DNA from: Yoonia ponticola
GTDB lineage: Bacteria; Pseudomonadota; Alphaproteobacteria; Rhodobacterales; Rhodobacteraceae
DNA length: 64,000 nucleotides
Assembly (NCBI RefSeq): GCF_014199395.1
Contig: NZ_JACIJM010000001.1
Location: 186,001 to 250,000, forward strand
Direction: 5' to 3'
Shown: in pieces, positions 32,408 through 44,011 of the stretch
Numbering within the stretch: position 1 is the first letter of the stretch
Layout: the number at the start of each line of letters is the position of its first letter
Program-made: the position numbers and the translations under genes
The notes under the pieces: model-generated
What the model was told of the DNA's origin: nothing
What the model saw: the letters and a program-made list of their open reading frames with translations, nothing else
Database searches by the model: none

Positions 32408-33100
32408 ATGTACGACATCATCACCTTCAAAGCCGGATTCGGCAACGTCAGCTATAGCCCGTTCTGTGTCAAATCCATCTGGATGCTGAACCATGCTGGT
32501 GCCGCTTGGCAGCGCACCGACACGCCCGATCCACGCAAATACGAACATAGCAAACTGCCAGTGCTGCGGGTCGGGGATCGCTTGATCTCTGACAGTGACA
32601 GCATCCGGCTTTTCCTTGAACAACAGGGAGCAGATTTTTGGGGCGATACCAGTCCACGTGATCAAGCGATGGGGCGAGCGTTGATCCGCATGGTCGAAGA
32701 TCACATGTATTTTCACGTCGTCATGGACCGTTGGTTCGATGATCGTGTCTGGCCGATTGTCAGGGATGCCTATTTCACCGACATGCCCAAGATCATTCGC
32801 GGGGTGGTCACAAACGGCATTCGCAAGGCATTGCGCAAAGGGCTGCATGCGCAAGGGCTTCTGCGGCTAACGACGGACCAACGGCTTGTGCGACTTGATC
32901 AAGATCTCGCCACCATTCGAACGCTGTTAGCGCAGCACACCTTCATATTAGGCGACAAGCCGACTTTGCCGGACTTCTCGGTGGCGTCGATCCTGTCAAA
33001 CTTCGTCGCCACACCAGTCGAGACGGCATCGTCCTTGCGTGTGTCAGGCGATCCGGTTTTGATGGGCTACATCACCCGCATGAAGGAGATGTTCGATTGA
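32408..33100 (+). CDS. Glutathione S-transferase family protein
   Basis: This is a 230-residue GST-fold protein starting at the ATG at 32408, which has AGGAG seven bases upstream. The N-domain carries YSPFCVKSIWMLNHAGA, with a Cys in the position of the GST catalytic residue, and LPVLRVGDRLISDSDSI for the glutathione loop. The C-domain helices include an unusual WFDDRVWPIVRDAYF segment. It is divergent from the WYL regulator and overlaps the DUF1801 gene by four bases. The substrate is unknown. Confidence 0.85.
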   Translation: MYDIITFKAGFGNVSYSPFCVKSIWMLNHAGAAWQRTDTPDPRKYEHSKLPVLRVGDRLISDSDSIRLFLEQQGADFWGDTSPRDQAMGRALIRMVEDHMYFHVVMDRWFDDRVWPIVRDAYFTDMPKIIRGVVTNGIRKALRKGLHAQGLLRLTTDQRLVRLDQDLATIRTLLAQHTFILGDKPTLPDFSVASILSNFVATPVETASSLRVSGDPVLMGYITRMKEMFD

Positions 33101-33495
33101 CCCCATTCCAAGATGACGCTGTCCGCGCAGCCTTTGATGCGATCCCAGAGCCGGACCGTGCAGGTCTGTTGCAACTGCGTGAATTGATCCTCAGAATCGG
33201 GGCGGACCTACCCGAAGTACCCAGCGTGACCGAAGGGTTGCGTTGGGGACAGCCCGCCTATCTGACGCCAGCGCGGGTTGGGTCCACGATCCGGCTAGGT
33301 GTGCCAAAGAATGGTGGTTTTGCGATCTATGCAAGCTGCCAATCGACGATCATCAGCGACTTTGCCGACGCCTATCCGGGCTGGGACATCATTGAAGGAA
33401 ACCGTGCGGTTGTCTTCAGTGATATCACCCAAATTGACCCTGTGCGACACGGGGCATTGATCCGTTCCGCGCTGACATATCATCTGCAAAAGTAA
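33097..33495 (+). CDS. DUF1801 domain-containing protein
   Basis: This is a 132-residue protein that starts at TTG overlapping the GST stop (TTGA); AAGGAG lies eight bases upstream within the GST gene and supports this start. It has the DUF1801/YdhG-like fold (TEGLRWGQPAYLTP near 46-59; GGFAIYASCQSTIISDF near 73-89). The function of this family is unknown. The stop abuts the convergent rnr stop at 33496. It is very probably controlled with the GST by the WYL regulator. Confidence 0.8.
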   Translation: MTPFQDDAVRAAFDAIPEPDRAGLLQLRELILRIGADLPEVPSVTEGLRWGQPAYLTPARVGSTIRLGVPKNGGFAIYASCQSTIISDFADAYPGWDIIEGNRAVVFSDITQIDPVRHGALIRSALTYHLQK

Positions 33496-35742
33496 TTACT
33501 TACGGGTGCGTTTGACCTTACGGCTGACCTTTGCGGCCTTCTTTTTCGCAGACCCAGCACGACGCCGTACAGGTGCACCACGACGGCCACGACTAGACCC
33601 GCGCGGCAAGGCTTTACCGTCAATTTCAAGCAGTTCAACGATCAGGCCACCAGTGACGGGCAAGGCTTCGGCCAAGGTCACTTTCACCCGCTGGCCCAGC
33701 GCAATCACAAGGCCGCTGTCCGATCCCATCAGGGTTTGACTATCGGCGTCGTATTGGAAGAATTCGTTGCCTAGGCTGCGCATCGGCACCATGCCATCGG
33801 CACCCGTCTCGTCCAGTTTCACAAACACGCCAAACTTTGCGATGCCACTGATCCGGCCTGACATTTCAGCGCCAACACGTTCCGACAAAAACGCGGCAAG
33901 ATAGCGGTCAGTCGTGTCCCGTTCCGCAACCATCGACCGTCGCTCGGTGTCGGAAATCGCCTTGGCTGTTTCATCCAAACGCGCGACGTCATCAGGGGAT
34001 AAACCATCATCACCCCAGCCATGCGACGACACCAAAGCGCGGTGAACGATCAAATCAGCATAACGCCGAATAGGCGAGGTGAAATGGGCATAGGCCTTGA
34101 GCGCGAGGCCAAAGTGGCCGAAATTCTCAGCGTTATAATAGGCTTGGGTCATCGACCGTAGCGTCGCGATATTCACCAATTCAGCATCATCAGTGCCGCG
34201 GGCTTGATCCAGCAGACGGTTCAAATGCGCGGTCTGCAACACTTGCCCTTTGGCCAATGTCAAACCAGAGGCATGAACAACCTCGCGTAGGGCGTCCAGT
34301 TTCGCTTGGGTCGGTTCTTCGTGAACGCGGAATAGTTGCGGCGATTTCTTTGCGATCAGTGTCTCGGCGGCGGCGACATTGGCCAGCACCATGAATTCTT
34401 CGATCAACTTGTGTGCATCAAGGCGATCCTTGAAGTTCACCGAAGTCACCTTGCCCTCGTCGTTCAGCTCGATCCGGCGTTCTGGCAGGTCTAGTTCTAA
34501 CGGCTGACGACACGCGCGGGCACGCAATAGCGCGGCATAAGCACCATAAAGCGGCTTCAGAACATCATCCAAAAGCGGCGCGGTCTTGGCGTTTGGATTG
34601 CCGTCAATTGCGTCTTGGACTTCTTCGTAATGAAGCGACGCGGCAGAGCGCATCAAGGCACGGTGGAACGTGTGTCCGGTCTTGTTGCCTTCGGCATCAA
34701 TCGTCATTGCCACAGCGAGACAGGCACGATCAACTCCTTCATGCAGCGAACAGAGATCACCGGACAAAACGTCGGGTAACATCGGCACAACACGGTCGGG
34801 GAAATAGGTAGAGTTGCCACGCTTGCGGGCCTCGCGGTCCAATTCAGACCCCGGCGTCACGTAATAAGCGACATCAGCAATCGCGACCCAGATCGTAAAG
34901 GTGCCGTTCGCGTGGGCCTCGACATAACAGGCATCATCGTGGTCACGCGCATCGGACGGGTCAATCGTCACAAGCGGCAGATTACGTAGATCCGTGCGTT
35001 TGGCTAAGGGCGCACCCGTCTTAGCGTCCGCTTCGGCGATCACGGCGTCAGGGAAATGATCGGGGATGTCGTGTTGTTGGATTGCAATCAGCGATACGGC
35101 ACGTGGGGCTGTTGGATCGCCAAGACGCGCAATGACGCGGGCCTTAGGCAGACCCATCCGGCCTTTTGGTCCGGTTTGTTCGGCCTCGATCAATTCCCCG
35201 TCTTTAGCGTCATGCGTCAAACCGGCGGGAATGATCCATTCCTTGGTCGAGCCCTTATCAACGGGCAGCAAGCGACCGCCTTCGGCCCCTTTGCGAAAGA
35301 TGCCCAACAGGCGCAGCGGGTTTTCACCGATCTGGCGAATAATGCGAGCGGTGTGGGTGTAATCTTCGCCCGCGACTTCGGTCAATCGGCCCAAAAACCG
35401 CTGACCCGCAGCTAAGGCAGGGTCAGTGCCGCGTAATGTCATCAACAGACGCGGCACATCGCCGTCGCCAGTCCATTCCAGCGGTTTCGCGTAGAGATCA
35501 CCATCGGCGTCGGCACCTGTGACCTCACAAACAGTCACGGGCGGCAACACATTCGCGTCGCGATAGGAACTGCGCCGCTTGGACAGTTTCCCTTCTGCTT
35601 CGAGCTCCTTGAGCACGCGTTTCAGATCAATCCGAGCGGCGCCTTTGATGCCAAACGCTTTGGCAATGTCGCGCTTGGCGGCTTTTGTGGGGTGATCGGA
35701 AATCCACGTCAGGATTTCGGCTTTTGAAGGAATGCTGTTCAT
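33496..35742 (-). CDS. rnr: Ribonuclease R
   Basis: This is a 748-residue exoribonuclease. An N-terminal winged helix (IAKAFGIKGAARIDLKRVL) and cold-shock-like domains precede the RNB catalytic core. Its metal site is in VTIDPSDARDHDDAC near residue 265, and the conserved HFTSPIRRYADL lies near residue 550. An S1 RNA-binding domain is at about 620-700 (MSGRISGIAKFGVFVKLDE, one residue short of 20). The tail is Lys/Arg-rich. RNase R degrades structured RNA from the 3' end and takes part in rRNA and tmRNA quality control. Domain order and length are typical. Confidence 0.95.
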   Translation of the reverse strand: MNSIPSKAEILTWISDHPTKAAKRDIAKAFGIKGAARIDLKRVLKELEAEGKLSKRRSSYRDANVLPPVTVCEVTGADADGDLYAKPLEWTGDGDVPRLLMTLRGTDPALAAGQRFLGRLTEVAGEDYTHTARIIRQIGENPLRLLGIFRKGAEGGRLLPVDKGSTKEWIIPAGLTHDAKDGELIEAEQTGPKGRMGLPKARVIARLGDPTAPRAVSLIAIQQHDIPDHFPDAVIAEADAKTGAPLAKRTDLRNLPLVTIDPSDARDHDDACYVEAHANGTFTIWVAIADVAYYVTPGSELDREARKRGNSTYFPDRVVPMLPDVLSGDLCSLHEGVDRACLAVAMTIDAEGNKTGHTFHRALMRSAASLHYEEVQDAIDGNPNAKTAPLLDDVLKPLYGAYAALLRARACRQPLELDLPERRIELNDEGKVTSVNFKDRLDAHKLIEEFMVLANVAAAETLIAKKSPQLFRVHEEPTQAKLDALREVVHASGLTLAKGQVLQTAHLNRLLDQARGTDDAELVNIATLRSMTQAYYNAENFGHFGLALKAYAHFTSPIRRYADLIVHRALVSSHGWGDDGLSPDDVARLDETAKAISDTERRSMVAERDTTDRYLAAFLSERVGAEMSGRISGIAKFGVFVKLDETGADGMVPMRSLGNEFFQYDADSQTLMGSDSGLVIALGQRVKVTLAEALPVTGGLIVELLEIDGKALPRGSSRGRRGAPVRRRAGSAKKKAAKVSRKVKRTRK

Positions 35743-35769
35743 GGGGATGCCTTATCACGCAAGGCTGCA

Positions 35770-35815
35770 CGGGGGCCAGCCCCCGCACCCCCGGAGTTGT
35801 TTGGGCAGAATGAAG
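35770..35815 (+). repeat. Intergenic repeat copy B: GC hairpin plus 23-nt core
   Basis: The hairpin CGGGGGC-CA-GCCCCCG (35770-35785) is followed by CACCCCC and the core G-GAGTT-GTTTG-GGC-AGA-ATGAAG ending at 35815. It lies between the minus-strand GNAT gene (stop at 35826) and the start of rnr. Hairpin, spacing and core match copy A at 9466-9512 closely. Confidence 0.82.
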
Positions 35816-35825
35816 CTTAAAGTCT

Positions 35826-36239
35826 CTAGAGGTCACGGATCATGTCTTGGTGTGGAATGCCTGCGTCGTCGTAAAACGGGCCGTAGCCTTTGAAGCCTAG
35901 CTTTTCGTAGAATCCAATGGCGTGGTCTTGTGAGCCAAGCTTGGCGCGGGTCACGTTCGGCAGCGTGCGCAGGTGGTCCATTGCGGCCTCGACGATTCGT
36001 GCTCCAAGTCCGGTGCCGCGATGATCAGAAAGCACGCAAATACGGCCGATTTTGCCGATGTCGTCTTGGATGAGCAGGCGGGCCGTTCCGGCGGGTTTGC
36101 CGTCAACCATTGCCAGCATATGGATCGCGCTTGCGTCCAAATCGTCCATTTCTTCGGCCTCAGAGATGCCTTGTTCTTCGATGAACACGGCACGGCGCAG
36201 GGCGACGCATGGCGCGTAGTCTTCCACAACAGTGATCAT
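35826..36239 (-). CDS. GNAT family N-acetyltransferase (ElaA-like)
   Basis: This is a 137-residue single-domain acetyltransferase. The acetyl-CoA loop is [18 protein letters not shown] near residues 73-90 (Q/RxxGxG/A motif), and the C-terminal [15 protein letters not shown] is the usual GNAT beta-bulge end. The N-terminal [18 protein letters not shown] resembles the ElaA branch. Its start overlaps the dapE stop at 36236-36239, so it is translated with dapE. The acceptor is unknown. Confidence 0.88.
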
Positions 36240-37378
36240 GCAAAATAATCCTTGAGAATGCGGCTGTAGATCGCCTTGAGCGTAATGATCTCAGAGACCA
36301 GAACCCGCTCGTCGACTTGGTGCATTGTTTTACCCGCGAGACCGAATTCGACAACGGGGCAGTGGTTTTTCACAAAGCGCGCGTCGGATGTGCCGCCCGA
36401 TGTGGAAAGTTCAGGATCACGGCCTGTTTCGGCTTTGACCGCTGCCCCGATGAGGTCAGAAAGCGGGCCGGGCGGTGTGATAAAGCTTTCGCCGGAAATC
36501 TTGACCTTCATGTTGATGTCGAGGTCGAATTGTGCGGCGACTTTGTTCGCCTCGGATTCGATCCATGCTGTCAAATCCGCGCCTGTGTGGCTGTCGTTAA
36601 AGCGGATATTCACTGTTGCGGTGCATTGGGCGGGGATTACGTTGGTCGCGCCGTTTCCGGTGTCGATCGTCACGACTGCCAGTGAAGAGGGATCAAAATG
36701 ATCAGTGCCTTGGTCCAATTCATGCGACGCGAGCACATCCATTAAGCGGGACATGGCGTGAACCGGGTTTTTGGCGCGGTGCGGGTAGGCCGAATGGCCC
36801 TGCACACCTGTTACCGTAAACCACACCGTCATGGACCCGCGACGACCGATTTTCATCGCGTCGCCAATCGCGTCTGGGCAGGTGGGTTCGCCTACTAAAC
36901 ACACGGACATCGCTTCGTTATTGGCGTCCATCCAGTCGAGCAATGCGACGGTGCCGTCTTGGGCTACGTCTTCTTCGTCGCCGGTTATCGCCAGCACGAC
37001 GGCACCGTCAGGTGGTGTGTCGCGCACAAAATCCACGGCGGCAGCGGCAAAGGCTGCAACGCCGGATTTCATGTCCGTCGCACCGCGGCCATACAGATAG
37101 CCGTCTTTGATTTCAGCACCAAACGGATCGACGGTCCAGTCGTCTGGATTGCCCAGGGGCACGACATCGGTGTGACCGTTAAAGCCGAATGTGCGATTTG
37201 CACCTTGCCGTCCCCAGCGGGCGTAGAGATTACAAATGCTGCCGCGATCCACGCGGGTGCAGTCAAATCCGCCCTCAGTCAGTAGCGATTCCAATAGTAC
37301 AAGCGCGCCGCCTTCTGCGGGCGTGATCGAATTGCACCGCACTAAATCCGCAGTCAGCGCGACGGGATCAATCGTCAT
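36236..37378 (-). CDS. dapE: Succinyl-diaminopimelate desuccinylase
   Basis: This is a 380-residue M20 metallopeptidase-family enzyme. Metal-ligand regions are [12 protein letters not shown] near residue 70, [13 protein letters not shown] near 103, [12 protein letters not shown] near 135 and a late TMHQVDERV. It removes succinate from N-succinyl-LL-diaminopimelate on the way to meso-DAP and lysine. The start MTIDPVALT is chosen because GAAGGGG lies upstream; a TTG six codons earlier has no such site. It overlaps the preceding small gene by 11 bases and the GNAT gene by four. DapD and a DapC-like enzyme are encoded elsewhere in the window. Confidence 0.95.
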
Positions 37379-37724
37379 CTTTTTCGTCCCCTTCAAAGAA
37401 CGGTGTCATCTGCGCGATGATCACCGAATTCTCATCGAGTGCGCGTTTCATCAAGCCGCGTTCTTCGTCGTTGATGTCGTGACCTTCGGCCAAACGTTCT
37501 TCGAGCGTGCCGTATCCCGACACATCGAGAGGGGCCAGATCGGCTTGTTTCAGAATCGCGACAGTTTCGCGCACGGCTTCTGCTTCGTCGACACCAGAGG
37601 CGTAACACATCAGCGCGCCGCCTGTGGCGCCTTCGGGCAATCCGTCGTCCGTATTGCGGCCGACTTCGACCAAAAGGGTGTAGACCTGCTGTCTGGACGG
37701 TTTTTTGACTTTGTGTTGGGTCAT
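37368..37724 (-). CDS. Conserved-looking small protein upstream of dapE, function unknown
   Basis: This is a 118-residue, soluble, acidic protein (many Glu and Asp, ending GDEKDDD). The basic N-terminus is [15 protein letters not shown]. It has no signal peptide, membrane segment or motif I recognise. Its stop lies 11 bases inside dapE, so it is the first gene of a coupled run with dapE and the GNAT gene. The overlap and consistent frame make it very likely real; its role is unknown. Confidence 0.65.
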
Positions 37725-37851
37725 GAACGTGGCCTTTAGGCAATGTTTTGCTGTTACTGACGTTTCAAACTCTGACCCGAAGGGCAAGAGCCTTGTCATC
37801 CCCCAATCATTGGCGCAGGGGACGACACAGAGACTAGGGGACTTCTACACT

Positions 37852-38928
37852 ATGCGTTTTTTAATGATCATCATCGGGATATATGTATCCCTTTGGACAA
37901 CTGTGGCAACGGCACAGACGCCGGATGTGTCATTGACGATTGGGACGGTCACAAGAGAACCGTTTTCATTTGAAACACCCGAAGGGCACAGCGGCTTTAG
38001 CATCGACTTGCTGAACGCAGCAGTCGAGACCATCGGCATGTCCGTTAGTTATCAAAGCTTTGATAGCTTTGCAGAAATGTTGACTGCAGTAGAAACTGGC
38101 ATGGTTGACGCGGCGATCTCGAATATCTCGATCACGGCCGAGCGCGAACGCCTGATGGACTTTACTCAACCGATCTTTGACGGCGGTGTGCAGGTCATGT
38201 TGCGATCCGATGCGAGTGCAAGCAGTAGCATCTTTTCAGTGATTTTGACGCGCGATATCGGGTTGCTGGTCCTGAGCGCTGTGCTGCTTTTACTGGCGGG
38301 CGGCATGTTAATGTACCTGTTCGAGCGTAAGCATCAGCCCTATTTTGATCACAACCCAAAGGACGCGGTGTTTCCTGCGTTCTGGTGGGCGCTTAACCTC
38401 GTCGTAAACGGCGGTTTTGAAGAGCGTGTGCCGCAGTCCAAACCGGGGCGTGCGTTTGGTGTGCTCCTTGTGATCGGTAGCTTGTTCATCGTGTCGATCT
38501 TTGTGGCCCAGATCACGGCGGCACTGACGGTCAACGCGATCCAAGACAACGTGGACAGCTTGTCGGACCTTGACGGGCGGTCAGTTGGTACGATCCAGAT
38601 GTCGACAACGTCAGCGTTTCTTGATGATCGCGGCATCGCTCATTTTGAATTCGCCGGATTGGAAGAACTATTTGTGGCCTTCGAGACCAAACAGATCGAA
38701 GCGGTCGTCTTTGATGGTCCAATCCTCGCGCATTACGTGGACAATACCGGCCTCGGGAAATCCCGTCTGCTGGAACGTATTTACCGTCCTGAAAAATATG
38801 GAATGGTGTTCACCGAAGGCAGTCTTTACCGCGAGCCTGTCGATCAGGCGTTCTTGCGTTTGCGTGAAGATGGCACCTACCAAGACCTGATCACAAAATG
38901 GTTCGGTCCAGCCTACTCGATCCGTTAG
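37852..38928 (+). CDS. Prokaryotic ionotropic glutamate receptor-like channel
   Basis: This is a 358-residue protein with a signal peptide (1-21) and a periplasmic solute-binding domain split by a channel module. S1 (24-132) contains NISITAERERLMDFTQP with Arg98 in the place that contacts ligand carboxylate. A first membrane helix is at 134-156, a pore loop at 173-191 (AFWWALNLVVNGGFEE), a second helix at 202-228 (FVAQITAALTVNAI, similar to the SYTANLAAF gate of glutamate receptors), then S2 (230-358) with Asp288 in FDGP, matching an amino-group ligand. The pore lacks TVGYG of potassium-selective members, so ion selectivity is uncertain. An AGGGG site precedes the ATG. Confidence 0.85.
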   Translation: MRFLMIIIGIYVSLWTTVATAQTPDVSLTIGTVTREPFSFETPEGHSGFSIDLLNAAVETIGMSVSYQSFDSFAEMLTAVETGMVDAAISNISITAERERLMDFTQPIFDGGVQVMLRSDASASSSIFSVILTRDIGLLVLSAVLLLLAGGMLMYLFERKHQPYFDHNPKDAVFPAFWWALNLVVNGGFEERVPQSKPGRAFGVLLVIGSLFIVSIFVAQITAALTVNAIQDNVDSLSDLDGRSVGTIQMSTTSAFLDDRGIAHFEFAGLEELFVAFETKQIEAVVFDGPILAHYVDNTGLGKSRLLERIYRPEKYGMVFTEGSLYREPVDQAFLRLREDGTYQDLITKWFGPAYSIR

Positions 38929-38936
38929 TGAGGTCA

Positions 38937-38957
38937 GAGGGCGGGAATCCCGCCCTC
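38937..38957. terminator. Hairpin between convergent channel gene and dapD
   Basis: The inverted repeat GAGGGCGGGA-A-TCCCGCCCTC lies in the 41-base gap between two converging genes. Without a T-run on either side it is a candidate bidirectional terminator or insulator only. Confidence 0.55.
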
Positions 38958-38969
38958 GACCATGATCAT

Positions 38970-39797
38970 TTAGTCACGCAACAATTCGTTGATGCCTGTT
39001 TTTGACCGTGTCTTTTCGTCAACGCGCTTCACGATCACCGCACAGTACAAGTTGATGCCGTTCTTTGATGGCATCGTGCCTGCGACGACAACGGAATATG
39101 GTGGCACTTCGCCGTATGACACTTCGCCAGTTTCGCGGTCTACGATCTTGGTGGATTGGCCGATAAAGACGCCCATGCCCAAAACAGACCCCTCGCGGAT
39201 GATGCAACCTTCAACGACTTCAGAGCGCGCGCCGATAAAGCAGTTGTCTTCGATGATCGTCGGGCCAGCTTGCATTGGCTCTAACACGCCGCCAATGCCA
39301 ACGCCGCCGGACAGGTGCACGTTTTTACCGATCTGAGCGCAAGACCCAACTGTGGCCCAACCATCAACCATCGTGCCTTCGTCGACGTATGCGCCAAGGT
39401 TCACAAACGACGGCATCAACACAACGCCGGGGGCGATATAGGCCGAGCGACGCACGATAGAGCCGGGAACCGCGCGGAAACCTGCGTCATTCCATTGGTT
39501 TTCACCCCAGCCTGCGAACTTTGACGGAACCTTGTCCCACCATGTTGTATCGCCATTACCGCCGTTGATGGCTTCCATGTCGTTCAAACGGAAGGACAAA
39601 AGCACCGCTTTTTTCGCCCATTGGTTCACAAACCAACTGCCGTCTTCCTGCTTTTCAGCAACGCGCAGCTTGCCGCTATCCAGTGCGTTCATCGTATCTT
39701 CGATAGCGTCGCGTGTTTCACCTTTGGTGGCCGTGGTGATCATGTCACGGGCCTCCCAAGCGGCTTCGATGGCGGTCTCAAGGGCAGCATTCGACAT
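38970..39797 (-). CDS. dapD: Tetrahydrodipicolinate N-succinyltransferase
   Basis: This is a 275-residue left-handed beta-helix acyltransferase, start [10 protein letters not shown]. After an N-terminal helical part comes the hexapeptide-repeat region from about residue 105 ([40 protein letters not shown]), and the conserved [11 protein letters not shown]. It succinylates tetrahydrodipicolinate using succinyl-CoA, the first step of the succinylase branch to meso-DAP. AAGGA lies about ten bases before the chosen start. It converges with the channel gene; dapE is 1.6 kb away on the same strand. Confidence 0.95.
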
Positions 39798-40020
39798 GAG
39801 GCAGGGTCCTTTGGTCTGGAAAATGTTCATCGCGGCTATAATCGGACAGGGCTACGGGCGCAATCTATGCCGCATACACCAAATTCCCCGAATACGCACA
39901 CGTCCTTTTGGTGAATTGCTTGAAGCAGAAAGTCACTAATCCCAGAAACAAGGCGTAGAGCGATTGCATCCGTCGGCGCTTCCAGCAAGTCTATCGCAAA
40001 CAAAAAGAAAGAGGCGACCG

Positions 40021-40863
40021 ATGGATCACCGTAAACATAATCTGCGCGACAGCCACGAAGACCGCGAAGCGGTATCGCACACGCCGGTCACACCGCAAAC
40101 GCAGGCGCCGTCCTACAAGTTGGCATTCGCAGATGTCGACTTTTTGTGCCGCGAAGATTTACGGCCTGTGCGCTTGCAGCTCGAATTGCTCAAGCCTGAA
40201 CTGTTGATGAACGAAGCGGGGATCGAATCCACCATCGTTCTTTTCGGCGGGGCCCGTATTCCAGAGCCTGCGAAAAAGGACACGGCGCGGACAAAAACAT
40301 TGGCAGACCTGTCAAAATATTACGACGAGGCGCGTAAATTTTCGGAACTTATGACGACGAAATCCATGGCCACAGGCGGCCAACGCGGCGTGATCGCAAC
40401 AGGCGGCGGGCCAGGCGTGATGGAAGCAGGAAACCGAGGCGCACAAGATGCCGGCGGCAAATCTATCGGGTTGAATATCGTGCTGCCGTTTGAGCAAGCA
40501 CCGAACGAATATGTGACGCCGGAATTATGCTTTAATTTCCACTACTTCGCGATTCGCAAGATGCACTTCCTGATGCGTGCCGAAGCAATCACCGTCTTTC
40601 CAGGTGGCTTTGGGACGCTTGATGAAATGTTTGAGGCCTTAACCCTGATTCAGACAGGCCGTATGGCGCGGGTGCCGTTCCTGCTGTTCGGGAAAGCCTT
40701 CTGGGAAGGTATTATCAACTGGGATGTTCTGGCCGACGCCGGCACAATTTCGGCGGATGACCTTAAGTTATTCCGCTTTGTTGAAACCGCAGAAGAGGCG
40801 ATGGAAGCGTTGGAAAACTGGGAAGGCAAAGGCGAGAAGCGCGGTAAAATCCCCGGTCGCTGA
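40021..40863 (+). CDS. LOG-family Rossmann-fold protein (TIGR00730-like)
   Basis: This is a 280-residue protein with the two signature motifs of the LOG/lysine-decarboxylase-like family: GGGPGVMEAGNRGA near residues 126-139 and PGGFGTLDEMFE near 195-206. Family members cleave nucleoside 5'-monophosphates, including cytokinin ribotides, to a base and ribose phosphate; the bacterial ppGpp-binding relatives (PpnN) share part of the fold. About 75 N-terminal residues precede the core. AGAGG lies about eight bases before the ATG at 40021; a 223-base leader separates it from the divergent dapD. Confidence 0.85.
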   Translation: MDHRKHNLRDSHEDREAVSHTPVTPQTQAPSYKLAFADVDFLCREDLRPVRLQLELLKPELLMNEAGIESTIVLFGGARIPEPAKKDTARTKTLADLSKYYDEARKFSELMTTKSMATGGQRGVIATGGGPGVMEAGNRGAQDAGGKSIGLNIVLPFEQAPNEYVTPELCFNFHYFAIRKMHFLMRAEAITVFPGGFGTLDEMFEALTLIQTGRMARVPFLLFGKAFWEGIINWDVLADAGTISADDLKLFRFVETAEEAMEALENWEGKGEKRGKIPGR

Positions 40864-40951
40864 GCCTCGCGAGTGATTTTTTGAAGAACTGAAACGAATT
40901 TTCAATACTTAACGTGCACAACGGACCTCATGTATTTGGGGTTTGTTTTGT

Positions 40952-41674
40952 ATGATTTTTGAACGTTGCGTTGTAACGATATTTTTGTTGGCTTTGATGG
41001 CCGTGGGTGCGCGCGCGCAAGTCTCGCCATTGATCGGTGGGGCGGATCGCATGCCGCTTGTTCAAATCAATCGCGCCAGCGATCCGTTGAAAAGCAACGG
41101 GTCCAGCCTGTTCATCGGACAAAGCGGCGGCAGTCTATTTGCGCCCTATCCGACCCGCCACAAAGCACCGATTGGCGGAATTTTGGGCCAATACGCATCG
41201 TCAGAAGCCCGATTATTGCAACTGATCGCATCGGCCGAAGCAGGGCCAGACGGCTACGATGCGGTGCAGCACGGGGCTTCAAAACGACCGGCAAAGCGAC
41301 CAACGGACATGACTATCGGCGAGATATACGATTGGATTGTCGCGACCCCAGGCCAACCTCATGCCATAGGCCGTTATCAATTCATTCCTGATACGTTGCG
41401 CCGTTTGGTCGGGCAGGCGGGGTACACACGGCAAACGCAATTCACGCCCGCCGTGCAGGATCAACTTGCGGAAATTCTGCTAAATGACGCGGGGTTGGCC
41501 GTATTTCGGGCAGGTAGCATAAACCGTCATGCGTTTATGAACAATTTGGCAAAAATCTGGGCAGGACTGCCGACGTCCTCGGGGAAATCGTTCTACCACG
41601 GCTACGCAGGCAATCACGCCACAATGACATGGGCCCGCTACGACGCCGAGATGAGCCAGATTTACCCCGGATAA
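40952..41674 (+). CDS. Exported muramidase-like protein (lambda R endolysin fold)
   Basis: This is a 240-residue protein with a signal peptide (about 1-23) and a C-terminal domain at about 85-235 that lines up with lambda R-type lytic transglycosylases (GH104). Landmarks are the acidic residue Glu96 in LIASAEAGPDGYD, then GRYQFIPDT near 140, FTPAVQDQLAEILL near 164, and the late KIWAGLPTSSGKSFYHGY. No holin or other phage genes are adjacent, so it looks like a chromosomal cell-wall enzyme rather than prophage. Export to the periplasm is expected. Activity is inferred from pattern only. Confidence 0.72.
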   Translation: MIFERCVVTIFLLALMAVGARAQVSPLIGGADRMPLVQINRASDPLKSNGSSLFIGQSGGSLFAPYPTRHKAPIGGILGQYASSEARLLQLIASAEAGPDGYDAVQHGASKRPAKRPTDMTIGEIYDWIVATPGQPHAIGRYQFIPDTLRRLVGQAGYTRQTQFTPAVQDQLAEILLNDAGLAVFRAGSINRHAFMNNLAKIWAGLPTSSGKSFYHGYAGNHATMTWARYDAEMSQIYPG

Positions 41675-41681
41675 TTGGCGC

Positions 41682-42593
41682 TTACGGCAGTGATGCAATC
41701 CGTTCCATCACGAGATCAACCGCCCATTTCGCGTCGACACTCATCGCCACGTCAACAAGGGGACGGGTGTCATCGGCAACTGTCTGACCCATTTGATCGC
41801 CACTTAGAACGACCCGCAAGCCAGATTGCTTCATCTCAAAGCGTTCGGGCGCGATGCAAGCGAGCAAAGCTGTCGAATCGTGCATCGGACATCCGTCGAA
41901 CACGCCAACGGACCGGTAAAAACCGAGATAGAAGTCAGAAATATCGCGAATAAATCCACCAACCTTTGGTGATGTTTCACCCATCACAACAAAGTGTTCG
42001 GGCGCCAAAAGCGTAAGCATCGTCGCATTCAGGCCAACCATGACGGTGTGCATGTCAGTCGAGAATACAACGTCAGCCGCTGCGGGATCGTGATAAATAT
42101 TCGCTTCGGCATAGGGCGAGATATTGCCAGCGCACTCAAACGCGCCGCCCATAATCACAAGGCTTTTGATGTTCTTCGCAAAATCGGGATCCAGCTTGAT
42201 CGCGTCGGCAATATTAGTCAGTGGACCAATAGCACAAACGACCAGTTCGCCGGCATTTTCCTGGGCCATGCGCACCAGAAATGTGGCGGCATTTTCGTCT
42301 TCATTTTGACCTATCTCAGGAATGTCAGCGATAGCGCCAAAACCTTCATCACCGTGAACATTCGCAGACGGTTGATAATCTGTCGCACCAAAGGGAAGTG
42401 CTGCACCTTCAGCGACCGGACATTTCGTGCCAAGAAAATCAAGTAGATACCGCGCGTTACGACTGGATTGGTGGACAAACGTATTGCCAAAAATAGTGGT
42501 CAGCCCAAGCAGCTCGACATCAGGCAAAGCTGCAGCCAATGCTATCGCTAGCGCATCATCCACGCCCGGATCTGTATCAATTATTAATTTCAT
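41682..42593 (-). CDS. Nucleoside hydrolase (inosine-uridine preferring type)
   Basis: This is a 303-residue protein starting MKLIIDTDPGVDDALAIALA at 42593, the signature calcium-binding DTDPGxDD start of the family. Further motifs are VCAIGPLTNIA near residue 122, IMGGAF near 147, the EANIYHDPAAADVVF block near 163 and the catalytic-type PMHDSTALL near 235. It hydrolyses nucleosides to base and ribose. The permitted base is not clear from sequence. It lies between a convergent muramidase-like gene and rlmN; 80 bases separate it from rlmN. Confidence 0.92.
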   Translation of the reverse strand: MKLIIDTDPGVDDALAIALAAALPDVELLGLTTIFGNTFVHQSSRNARYLLDFLGTKCPVAEGAALPFGATDYQPSANVHGDEGFGAIADIPEIGQNEDENAATFLVRMAQENAGELVVCAIGPLTNIADAIKLDPDFAKNIKSLVIMGGAFECAGNISPYAEANIYHDPAAADVVFSTDMHTVMVGLNATMLTLLAPEHFVVMGETSPKVGGFIRDISDFYLGFYRSVGVFDGCPMHDSTALLACIAPERFEMKQSGLRVVLSGDQMGQTVADDTRPLVDVAMSVDAKWAVDLVMERIASLP

Positions 42594-42672
42594 ATCAAAT
42601 GCCACCAATTGCGGAGGGGATCAAAGCCCTACCATCTTCAAATTACAAACCTGTCTGATACTTTGCGCCTGA

Positions 42673-43851
42673 TTAACCGCCAGTTTCGGCAGCGATTTGC
42701 GCCTTGGATTTGCGACCTCGTTCGGTTTCCGACTTCAACTGCCCGCAGGCGGCCATGATATCTTCGCCGCGCGGCCGGCGTACGGGCGACGAATAGCCAG
42801 CGTCATGGATAATGTCCGCAAACTTGCGAATCCGGTTGTTAGACGACCGCTTATAAGGCGCACCGGGCCATTCGTTGAAGGGAATAAGGTTGATCTTGGC
42901 CGGAATCCCTTCGATCAGTTTAACCAAACGGTAAGCGTCTTCATCACTGTCATTCACGCCGTCCAGCATCACGTATTCAAAGGTGATACGTTCGGAATTG
43001 GATACCTTTGGATACGACCGCAGCGCCTCCAACAGATCAGCCAAAGGCCAGCGTTTGTTGATCGGAACCAGCTTGTCACGCACTTCATCAGTGGTCGCAT
43101 GAAAGGAAATTGCCAGCTGACAACCGATCTCTTGAGCTGTTCGTGCGATTTCTGGCACGACACCAGACGTCGAGAGCGTAATCCGACGACGCGACAATTG
43201 AATGCCGTCAGGGTCCATCGCAATTTTCATCGCATCGCGCACGTTTTCAAAATTATAAAGCGGCTCGCCCATGCCCATTAAAACAATGTTCGACAGCAGG
43301 CGAGGGCCGTCAGTACGGGTGCCGTGATCCGGCCATTCATCCAGATCATCGCGAGCAACCAACACTTGTCCGATGATTTCGGCAGATGTCAGGTTGCGAA
43401 CAAGTTTCTGTGTACCTGTATGGCAGAAGGAACAGGTTAATGTGCAGCCAACTTGGGACGACACGCAAAGTGTGCCACGATCGGTTTCGGGAATATAAAC
43501 GATCTCAACTTCATGGCCGCCAGCAATGCGAACGAGATACTTGCGCGTGCCATCTTCGGACACCTGCCGCGTCACGACCTCGGGTACGGCGACGACAAAA
43601 GTCTCGGTCAGCATCGCACGGTAGTCTTTGGAAAGATTGGTCATTTCCGCGAAGTCACGGACCCCCCAATGGTAAATCCATTGCCAAATCTGGCCCACAC
43701 GCATCTTCGCTTGTTTCTCAGAGGTGCCAGCTTCGATCAACGCCGTACGCATCTGATCACGCGTCATGCCAACGAGATTCGGCAAACCACCACCGACGTC
43801 TTTGCGCGGAATGGTTAACATATCAGGGGTGACGGGGGCCGTAGCGTTCAT
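42673..43851 (-). CDS. rlmN: 23S rRNA/tRNA adenine methyltransferase RlmN
   Basis: This is a 392-residue radical SAM enzyme, start [11 protein letters not shown] at 43851 with GGAG nine bases upstream. The iron-sulfur cluster ligands are in [11 protein letters not shown] near residue 128, [11 protein letters not shown] follows, and a catalytic Cys lies near the C-terminus in MAACGQL. It methylates C2 of A2503 in 23S rRNA and A37 of some tRNAs. The terminal lysine/arginine-rich tail is common in alphaproteobacterial members. A strong hairpin lies 38 bases upstream of its start. Confidence 0.95.
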
Positions 43852-43888
43852 AATAGAATCTCCAACATTCACGCCCCATATAAACAAT

Positions 43889-43920
43889 AAGCGTCGGTTT
43901 CCAATGAAAACCGACGCTTT
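43889..43920. terminator. Strong hairpin between ialB and rlmN
   Basis: A twelve-base-pair stem AAGCGTCGGTTT / AAACCGACGCTT with a seven-base loop (43889-43919), extended weakly by flanking AAACA/TGTTT. On the minus strand it follows ialB and precedes rlmN, so it may end the ialB transcript; T residues near it on that strand are interrupted (TTATTGTTTATA). Confidence 0.7.
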
Positions 43921-43969
43921 GTTTCTGTGACGTGTGGTATATCATGTAGATTTAGCAGCAGGGACCGCC

Positions 43970-44011
43970 CAAATTTTCTCGAAAATTTGTACGATTTTTC
44001 GAGAAAAATCG
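43970..44011. repeat. Two tandem 20-nt AT palindromes downstream of ialB
   Basis: CAAATTTTC-TC-GAAAATTTG (43970-43989) and CGATTTTTC-GA-GAAAAATCG (43992-44011) are two perfect palindromes with nine-base arms and two-base spacers, only two bases apart. They lie directly after the ialB stop. Similar 20-nt elements occur at 21214 and 46522. Confidence 0.85.

Follow-up and report, generated by a model that had tools for sequence, protein, structure and literature searches.

A putative glutamate-receptor channel without a potassium filter at the dapE/dapD locus of Yoonia ponticola

Ionotropic glutamate receptors of prokaryotes were surveyed by Ger et al. in 2010 (PMC2950845), who collected 22 sequences, found a potassium filter in 12 of them and assigned the other 10 to a Group 2 whose pore regions were left unrecognised and which they judged to be closer to human receptors. 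The functionally studied bacterial member is the potassium-selective GluR0, for which a 2026 study reports an action in cell-volume control after KCl upshock (PMC13099474); in the open-licence literature, we found no functional study of bacterial members that lack a potassium filter. Here we analyse a gene of the latter kind in a 64,000-nucleotide stretch of the Yoonia ponticola genome (contig NZ_JACIJM010000001.1, positions 186,001 to 250,000; hereafter the window). The gene is an open reading frame on the forward strand of the window, with its ATG at 37852 and the end of its stop codon at 38928, and it encodes a protein of 358 residues that, judged from its sequence and predicted structure, belongs to the ionotropic glutamate receptors of prokaryotes and, lacking the potassium filter, to their non-potassium class. 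Bacterial receptors of the Group 2 kind have been described since 2010; what is new here is a sharper reading of the filter, the fixation of that filter among relatives and the chromosomal locus.

A preliminary description of the gene, made from the sequence alone, had proposed a glutamate-receptor-like channel with a split binding domain and two helices, and its coordinates, strand and quoted residues all proved correct. The Pfam family SBP_bac_3 spans residues 28-352 (5.8e-26) and surrounds a Lig_chan match at residues 144-243 (5.1e-10; 39.8 bits, cut-off 30.8), so that the binding domain is interrupted by the channel. Lig_chan-Glu_bd (31.8 against a cut-off of 30) and Ion_trans (26.7 against 25) are also reached, Ion_trans_2, the two-helix potassium-channel pore family, stays under its cut-off (20 against 22.5), and no NCBIfam model attains its cut-off in this protein, the best being GlnH with 108.5 of 303 bits. 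The single-chain AlphaFold2 model, computed from an alignment of 56 rows, has a mean predicted local distance difference test score (pLDDT) of 91.9 and, together with a pore profile, places M1, a re-entrant pore loop and M3 in the protein. From its amino terminus, the protein comprises a likely signal peptide (residues 1-21, 37852-37914, with a model helix at 2-20 and the cleavage site set by eye); the S1 half of the binding domain (residues 23-126, 37918-38229), which carries R35, N91, S93 and R98; the M1 helix (residues 134-158, 38251-38325); the pore helix (residues 173-186) and the filter NGGFEE (residues 186-191), together at 38368-38424; the M3 helix (residues 197-232, 38440-38547), with a gate-like stretch at 216-227 that includes FVAQITAALTV (217-227); and the S2 half (residues 233-354, 38548-38913), which carries S251, T252 and D288. 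Both halves are supported by SBP_bac_3 and by alignment to the solved structure 2pyy. Starting with signal peptide and S1 and ending after S2, the protein has neither an amino-terminal domain nor an M4 helix. Its best full-length fold matches are animal AMPA, NMDA and delta receptors.

This organisation is that of Group 2 (PMC2950845), in which the binding halves likewise enclose two helices and a pore loop without a potassium filter, S1 holds an Arg and S2 an Asp, a signal peptide is mostly present and the proteins are annotated as binding proteins. The likeness is one of definition, namely receptor topology without a recognisable potassium filter. An ordinary binding protein, the outcome that the preliminary description had named as one that would refute it, was set aside on the channel-split domain, on a pore profile that finds receptors and on the high conservation of the pore. 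The family-3 binding proteins of ATP-binding cassette (ABC) importers, in contrast, have an uninterrupted soluble domain, and inspection by eye of the open reading frames listed for 33000-44000 found no permease or ATPase genes of such an importer.

The filter was compared with known pores at the level of the pore region only. GYG occurs nowhere in the protein, and NGGFE (residues 186-190) stands in the place of TVGYG. When a pore-only profile (residues 127-245, from 20 of the 56 alignment rows) was searched against the PDB, 311 sequences were retrieved, and the best 60 of these are all glutamate receptors, from animals and one plant (top match 5.7e-8). The consensus of this profile, FWWALNLVVNGGFEERVPRS, aligned with LWFSLGAFMQQGCD-ISPRS of GluA2, N186 falling on the first Gln of QQGCD. 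In GluN1, numbered from chains matched at 604-671, N186 lies without a gap on Asn616, which is the Q/R/N site, and Glu residues follow at +4 and +5. The pore regions of Group 2 had gone unrecognised; in the window protein, the filter is placed on the Q/R/N site, and the non-canonical character noted in the preliminary description holds with respect to potassium channels but not with respect to animal receptors, in which an amide at the Q/R/N site is also followed by an acid. At the M3 gate, aligned to GluA2 SYTANLAAFLTV, SIFVAQITAA faces SYTANLAAF; Ala 219 and Ala 223 are kept and the other positions changed, and an Ala and the LTV of the gate region are common to animal receptors and the window protein.

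The filter is nearly fixed among relatives. In a set of 83 distinct close homologues, the window protein included (42% identity or more across a stretch longer than 180 residues), the preliminary description's proposed search for the same filter found NGGFE in 78, NGSFE and SSGYE in one each and SGDYK or SGDYR in three, all of them Jannaschia. Across the 56-row alignment, position 186 is Asn in 52 rows and Ser in 4, Glu is found at E190 in 53 and at E191 in 54, and P194, A219 and T226 are identical throughout. The pore helix and filter are conserved more strongly than the ligand domain and form the most conserved region of the protein.

Within the family, 63 of 295 genomes have a close full-length homologue; a hand count gives 64 matches that reach 3.1e-91 or better. 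Among the named carriers are Loktanella, Yoonia, Ruegeria, Celeribacter, Litoreibacter and Pacificibacter; the sole other genome of the genus has no close homologue. YP_168531.1, an accession cited in connection with Group 2, belongs to a Ruegeria protein. Fifteen remoter matches (24-39% identity) have other filters or were not read as members of the clade. Scans of the class and the phylum gave candidates in 9 of 385 and 55 of 398 genomes, binding-protein fragments included, and since few candidates per genome were scored, absence in these scans means little. For the 36 pairs formed by nine Ruegeria genes, the ratio of nonsynonymous to synonymous substitution rates (dN/dS) is 0.03-0.08, although dS exceeds 1 in many pairs, which indicates that the gene is maintained there as a protein under purifying selection. 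Two homologues in metagenome-assembled genomes, one of Loktanella (L127) and one of Planktotalea (L129), have broken reading frames and are either pseudogenes or assembly errors.

The ligand site can be read against NpGluR0 of Nostoc punctiforme, whose binding core, crystallised with L-glutamate (2pyy), is the closest solved relative of the binding domain at 41% identity; only that core is in the PDB, and the likeness accordingly covers the binding domain. The alignment listing that gives this figure consists mostly of binding domains, and the lack of potassium channels in it is uninformative. For an alpha-amino acid, an Arg in S1 and an acid in S2 are expected, and the window protein has both (R98 and D288), as the preliminary description had pointed out. 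The Arg, Asp and Ser-Thr elements match those of NpGluR0, where V33 and R35 are replaced by Arg and Ile. R98, D288, N91 and R35 are identical in all 56 rows, a conservation of R98 and D288 that goes beyond chance, S93, S251 and T252 are identical in 55, V33 is Val in 54, and the residue before Ser-Thr, Met here, is Gly in 42. The Asp that follows VAT in GlnH corresponds to V33, with the invariant Arg two residues on; given the role of that Asp, its absence counts against a ligand with an ammonium side chain. As far as these residues allow a judgement, they point to a small or acidic alpha-amino acid rather than to lysine or diaminopimelate (DAP).

We consider it probable, at roughly 0.6, that the protein forms a homotetrameric, amino-acid-gated cation channel that is not potassium-selective and may pass Ca2+; the architecture, the conserved residues, the kinship with NpGluR0, GluR0 and animal receptors, the nearly fixed filter and the purifying selection in relatives are observed, and tetramer, ligand, gating and ion selectivity are inferred. 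The inner membrane would hold an inverted two-helix pore built from four copies of the protein, and their four clamshell domains would sit above it in the periplasm. The clamshell would shut on an alpha-amino acid, for which L-glutamate or a close analogue is the most likely candidate, with R98 holding the alpha-carboxylate and D288 and S93 the alpha-amino group, and closure would pull the M3 gate open. In the filter, Asn (N186) would form one ring and Glu (E190 and E191) the rings that come after it, and cations, probably Na+ and K+ and perhaps Ca2+, would pass through them without potassium selectivity. Such a channel may depolarise the cell briefly or let in Ca2+ when a pulse of amino acid arrives, or may serve ion and volume control of the sort reported for GluR0. 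A study on a placozoan receptor describes an approximately threefold increase in Ca2+ permeation on replacing Ser by Asn at the Q/R/N site, and a polyamine block that required the acidic +4 residue (PMC12226733).

It is also conceivable, if unlikely, that the two helices conduct nothing and the protein is a binding-domain receptor or an anchored binding protein. Its best solved relatives are isolated binding domains, a glutamine-binding protein ranks alongside NpGluR0, and the open-licence literature yielded no measured current for any member of the clade. Against this, the pore-only profile still retrieves receptor pores, and in a membrane anchor there would be no need for a pore helix and filter that are better conserved than the domain binding the ligand.

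Quite unlikely, in our estimate, is a ligand-gated channel that would still prefer potassium through an unusual filter. GluR0 of Synechocystis (1ii5/1iit) carries TVGYG; the window protein, compared with it as the preliminary description had suggested, does not, and falls outside the potassium-type Group 1. In a control search against the PDB with a profile from 12 of 17 TVGYG relatives, KcsA and other potassium channels came first (1.4e-14), with glutamate receptors from rank 44, and the best 60 matches listed comprised 52 potassium-channel entries and 8 glutamate receptors, against the 60 glutamate receptors heading the NGGFE search. In favour of a potassium preference, G188 keeps the first Gly of GYG, E191 occupies the place of its Asp, the Ion_trans_2 score falls only slightly short, and TVGYG members share a well-defined group with the NGGFE clade in the tree discussed below. 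Against it, the second Gly is Glu in 53 of the 56 rows and the Thr is Asn in 52. Filter changes of this type end potassium selectivity, though not without exception.

Several observations weigh against a non-selective, animal-like pore and have to be set beside that reading. GluA2 scores 52.1 bits with the TVGYG profile and 35.8 with the NGGFE profile, which implies that the outline of the pore is common to both classes and that the resemblance resides in the filter only. Over the rest of the pore, the TVGYG relatives are as near to animal receptors as the window protein or nearer, and the notion that the whole NGGFE pore is nearer to animals was rejected on this control. Few animal-like points distinguish the clade from its TVGYG relatives (Thr is replaced by Asn and the second Gly by Glu), an acid three residues before the Pro is found in potassium forms as well, alignment to GluA2 requires a one-residue gap that leaves +4 or +5 arguable, and the gate motif is kept only in part. 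AvGluR1 is described as a receptor with a TXVGYG filter that nevertheless passes Na+ (PMC3483616), so that neither filter motif nor sequence alone is decisive for selectivity. As read from the alignments, then, these two substitutions in the filter, to Asn and to Glu, are what sets the NGGFE clade apart.

The history of the filter was examined in a midpoint-rooted tree of 52 rows built on the binding halves alone. The eight rows of the NGGFE clade stand together (97/93); a 22-row group (96/96) joins them with NASFT, MGGFE and SGR- or SGK-type filters; and a 29-row group (100/99) encloses these and holds three TVGYG rows. Read in this way, the filter switched kind at least once among the kin of the NGGFE clade, in a direction that depends on the midpoint root; the label count with one change for TVGYG omits 27 ungrouped rows. 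More tentatively, and at odds that we would put below even, a marine alphaproteobacterial lineage may maintain, at a single spot in the chromosome, a non-selective cation channel that is gated by glutamate and permeable to Ca2+. Its filter would have started from a TVGYG-type background and arrived at the solution found at the Q/R/N site of animals (Asn plus acid), with NASFT, MGGFE, SGDY and SSGYE still alive in kin.

Natural filter variants occur at the same type of locus (L122, L123 and L125 in Jannaschia, with SGDY; L120 and L075, with SSGYE and NGSFE), and two genomes carry natural pairs of an NGGFE and a TVGYG receptor (G003, L068 and L036; G103, L052 and L038). Further filters occur in other families. 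An SGR/SGK filter followed by an NLFG-like stretch marks another non-potassium class, on Paracoccus plasmids and in other alphaproteobacteria (L040, L041, L143, L144, L159, L161, L163 and L167), and a gammaproteobacterial class of Photobacterium and kin has the filter KGPFNY(F/Y)EFK (L142, L162 and L168).

In the window, the channel gene lies between two genes named by recognition, a dapE-like gene (36236-37378, reverse strand) and a convergent dapD-like gene (38970-39797, reverse strand), with a small gene of 118 codons (37368-37724, reverse strand) between the former and the channel. The preliminary description had taken the dap flanks to be possibly fortuitous. The flanks are there, with the small gene sitting before dapE, and chance was rejected: at 78 loci (sets of 43 and 35, some genomes being in both), dapE or dapD lies within 4-5 kb in 77 and both do in 60, L083 having neither. 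The channel gene is on the strand opposite to dapE/dapD in 77 of 77. Of 66 loci showing dapD and the small gene, 44 have the small gene between channel and dapD, and 22 have the channel between the two, as in the window. RNase R, LOG and RlmN genes accompany many loci, and 15 distant paralogue loci (L034-L048) are not at the dapE/dapD place.

A sensor of lysine or DAP linked to the dap genes, which this proximity could suggest, is very unlikely and was set aside on the opposite strand, the passenger genes, V33 in place of the GlnH Asp, and the channel-less genomes, where dapD is present in 20 of 20 picked for having no close homologue (10 have partial matches and 10 no match). Among these, dapE lies near dapD in L199, L207, L208, L209 and L211, and in nine other loci inspected several dapE-dapD gaps hold unrelated open frames that by eye resemble acetyltransferase, isochorismatase-like hydrolase, aldo/keto reductase or Hint-type proteins; such frames indicate no lysine or DAP role, and no functional tie is required. 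The channel locus is inherited and open to gene turnover. The intervals of L195, L197 and L198 hold, by eye, large Hint-domain-like frames, and that of L198 a cation-exchanger-like frame as well.

A promoter and terminator scan of 37600-39100 found nothing above shuffles. A near-perfect palindrome, GAGGGCGGGAATCCCGCCCTC, seen by eye at 38937-38957 between the stop codons of the converging channel and dapD genes, is absent from the scan output because it has no T run.

What is at issue in these proteins is the origin of the mixed-cation pore of animal receptors from potassium-channel-like ancestors. The NGGFE clade offers a test case that is small, probably homomeric and common in culturable marine bacteria, with a nearly fixed animal-like filter, few natural variants, and potassium-filter relatives in the same family, two genomes having both. 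If the filter history proposed above is true, these receptors would form a natural series for the loss or gain of potassium selectivity among glutamate receptors.
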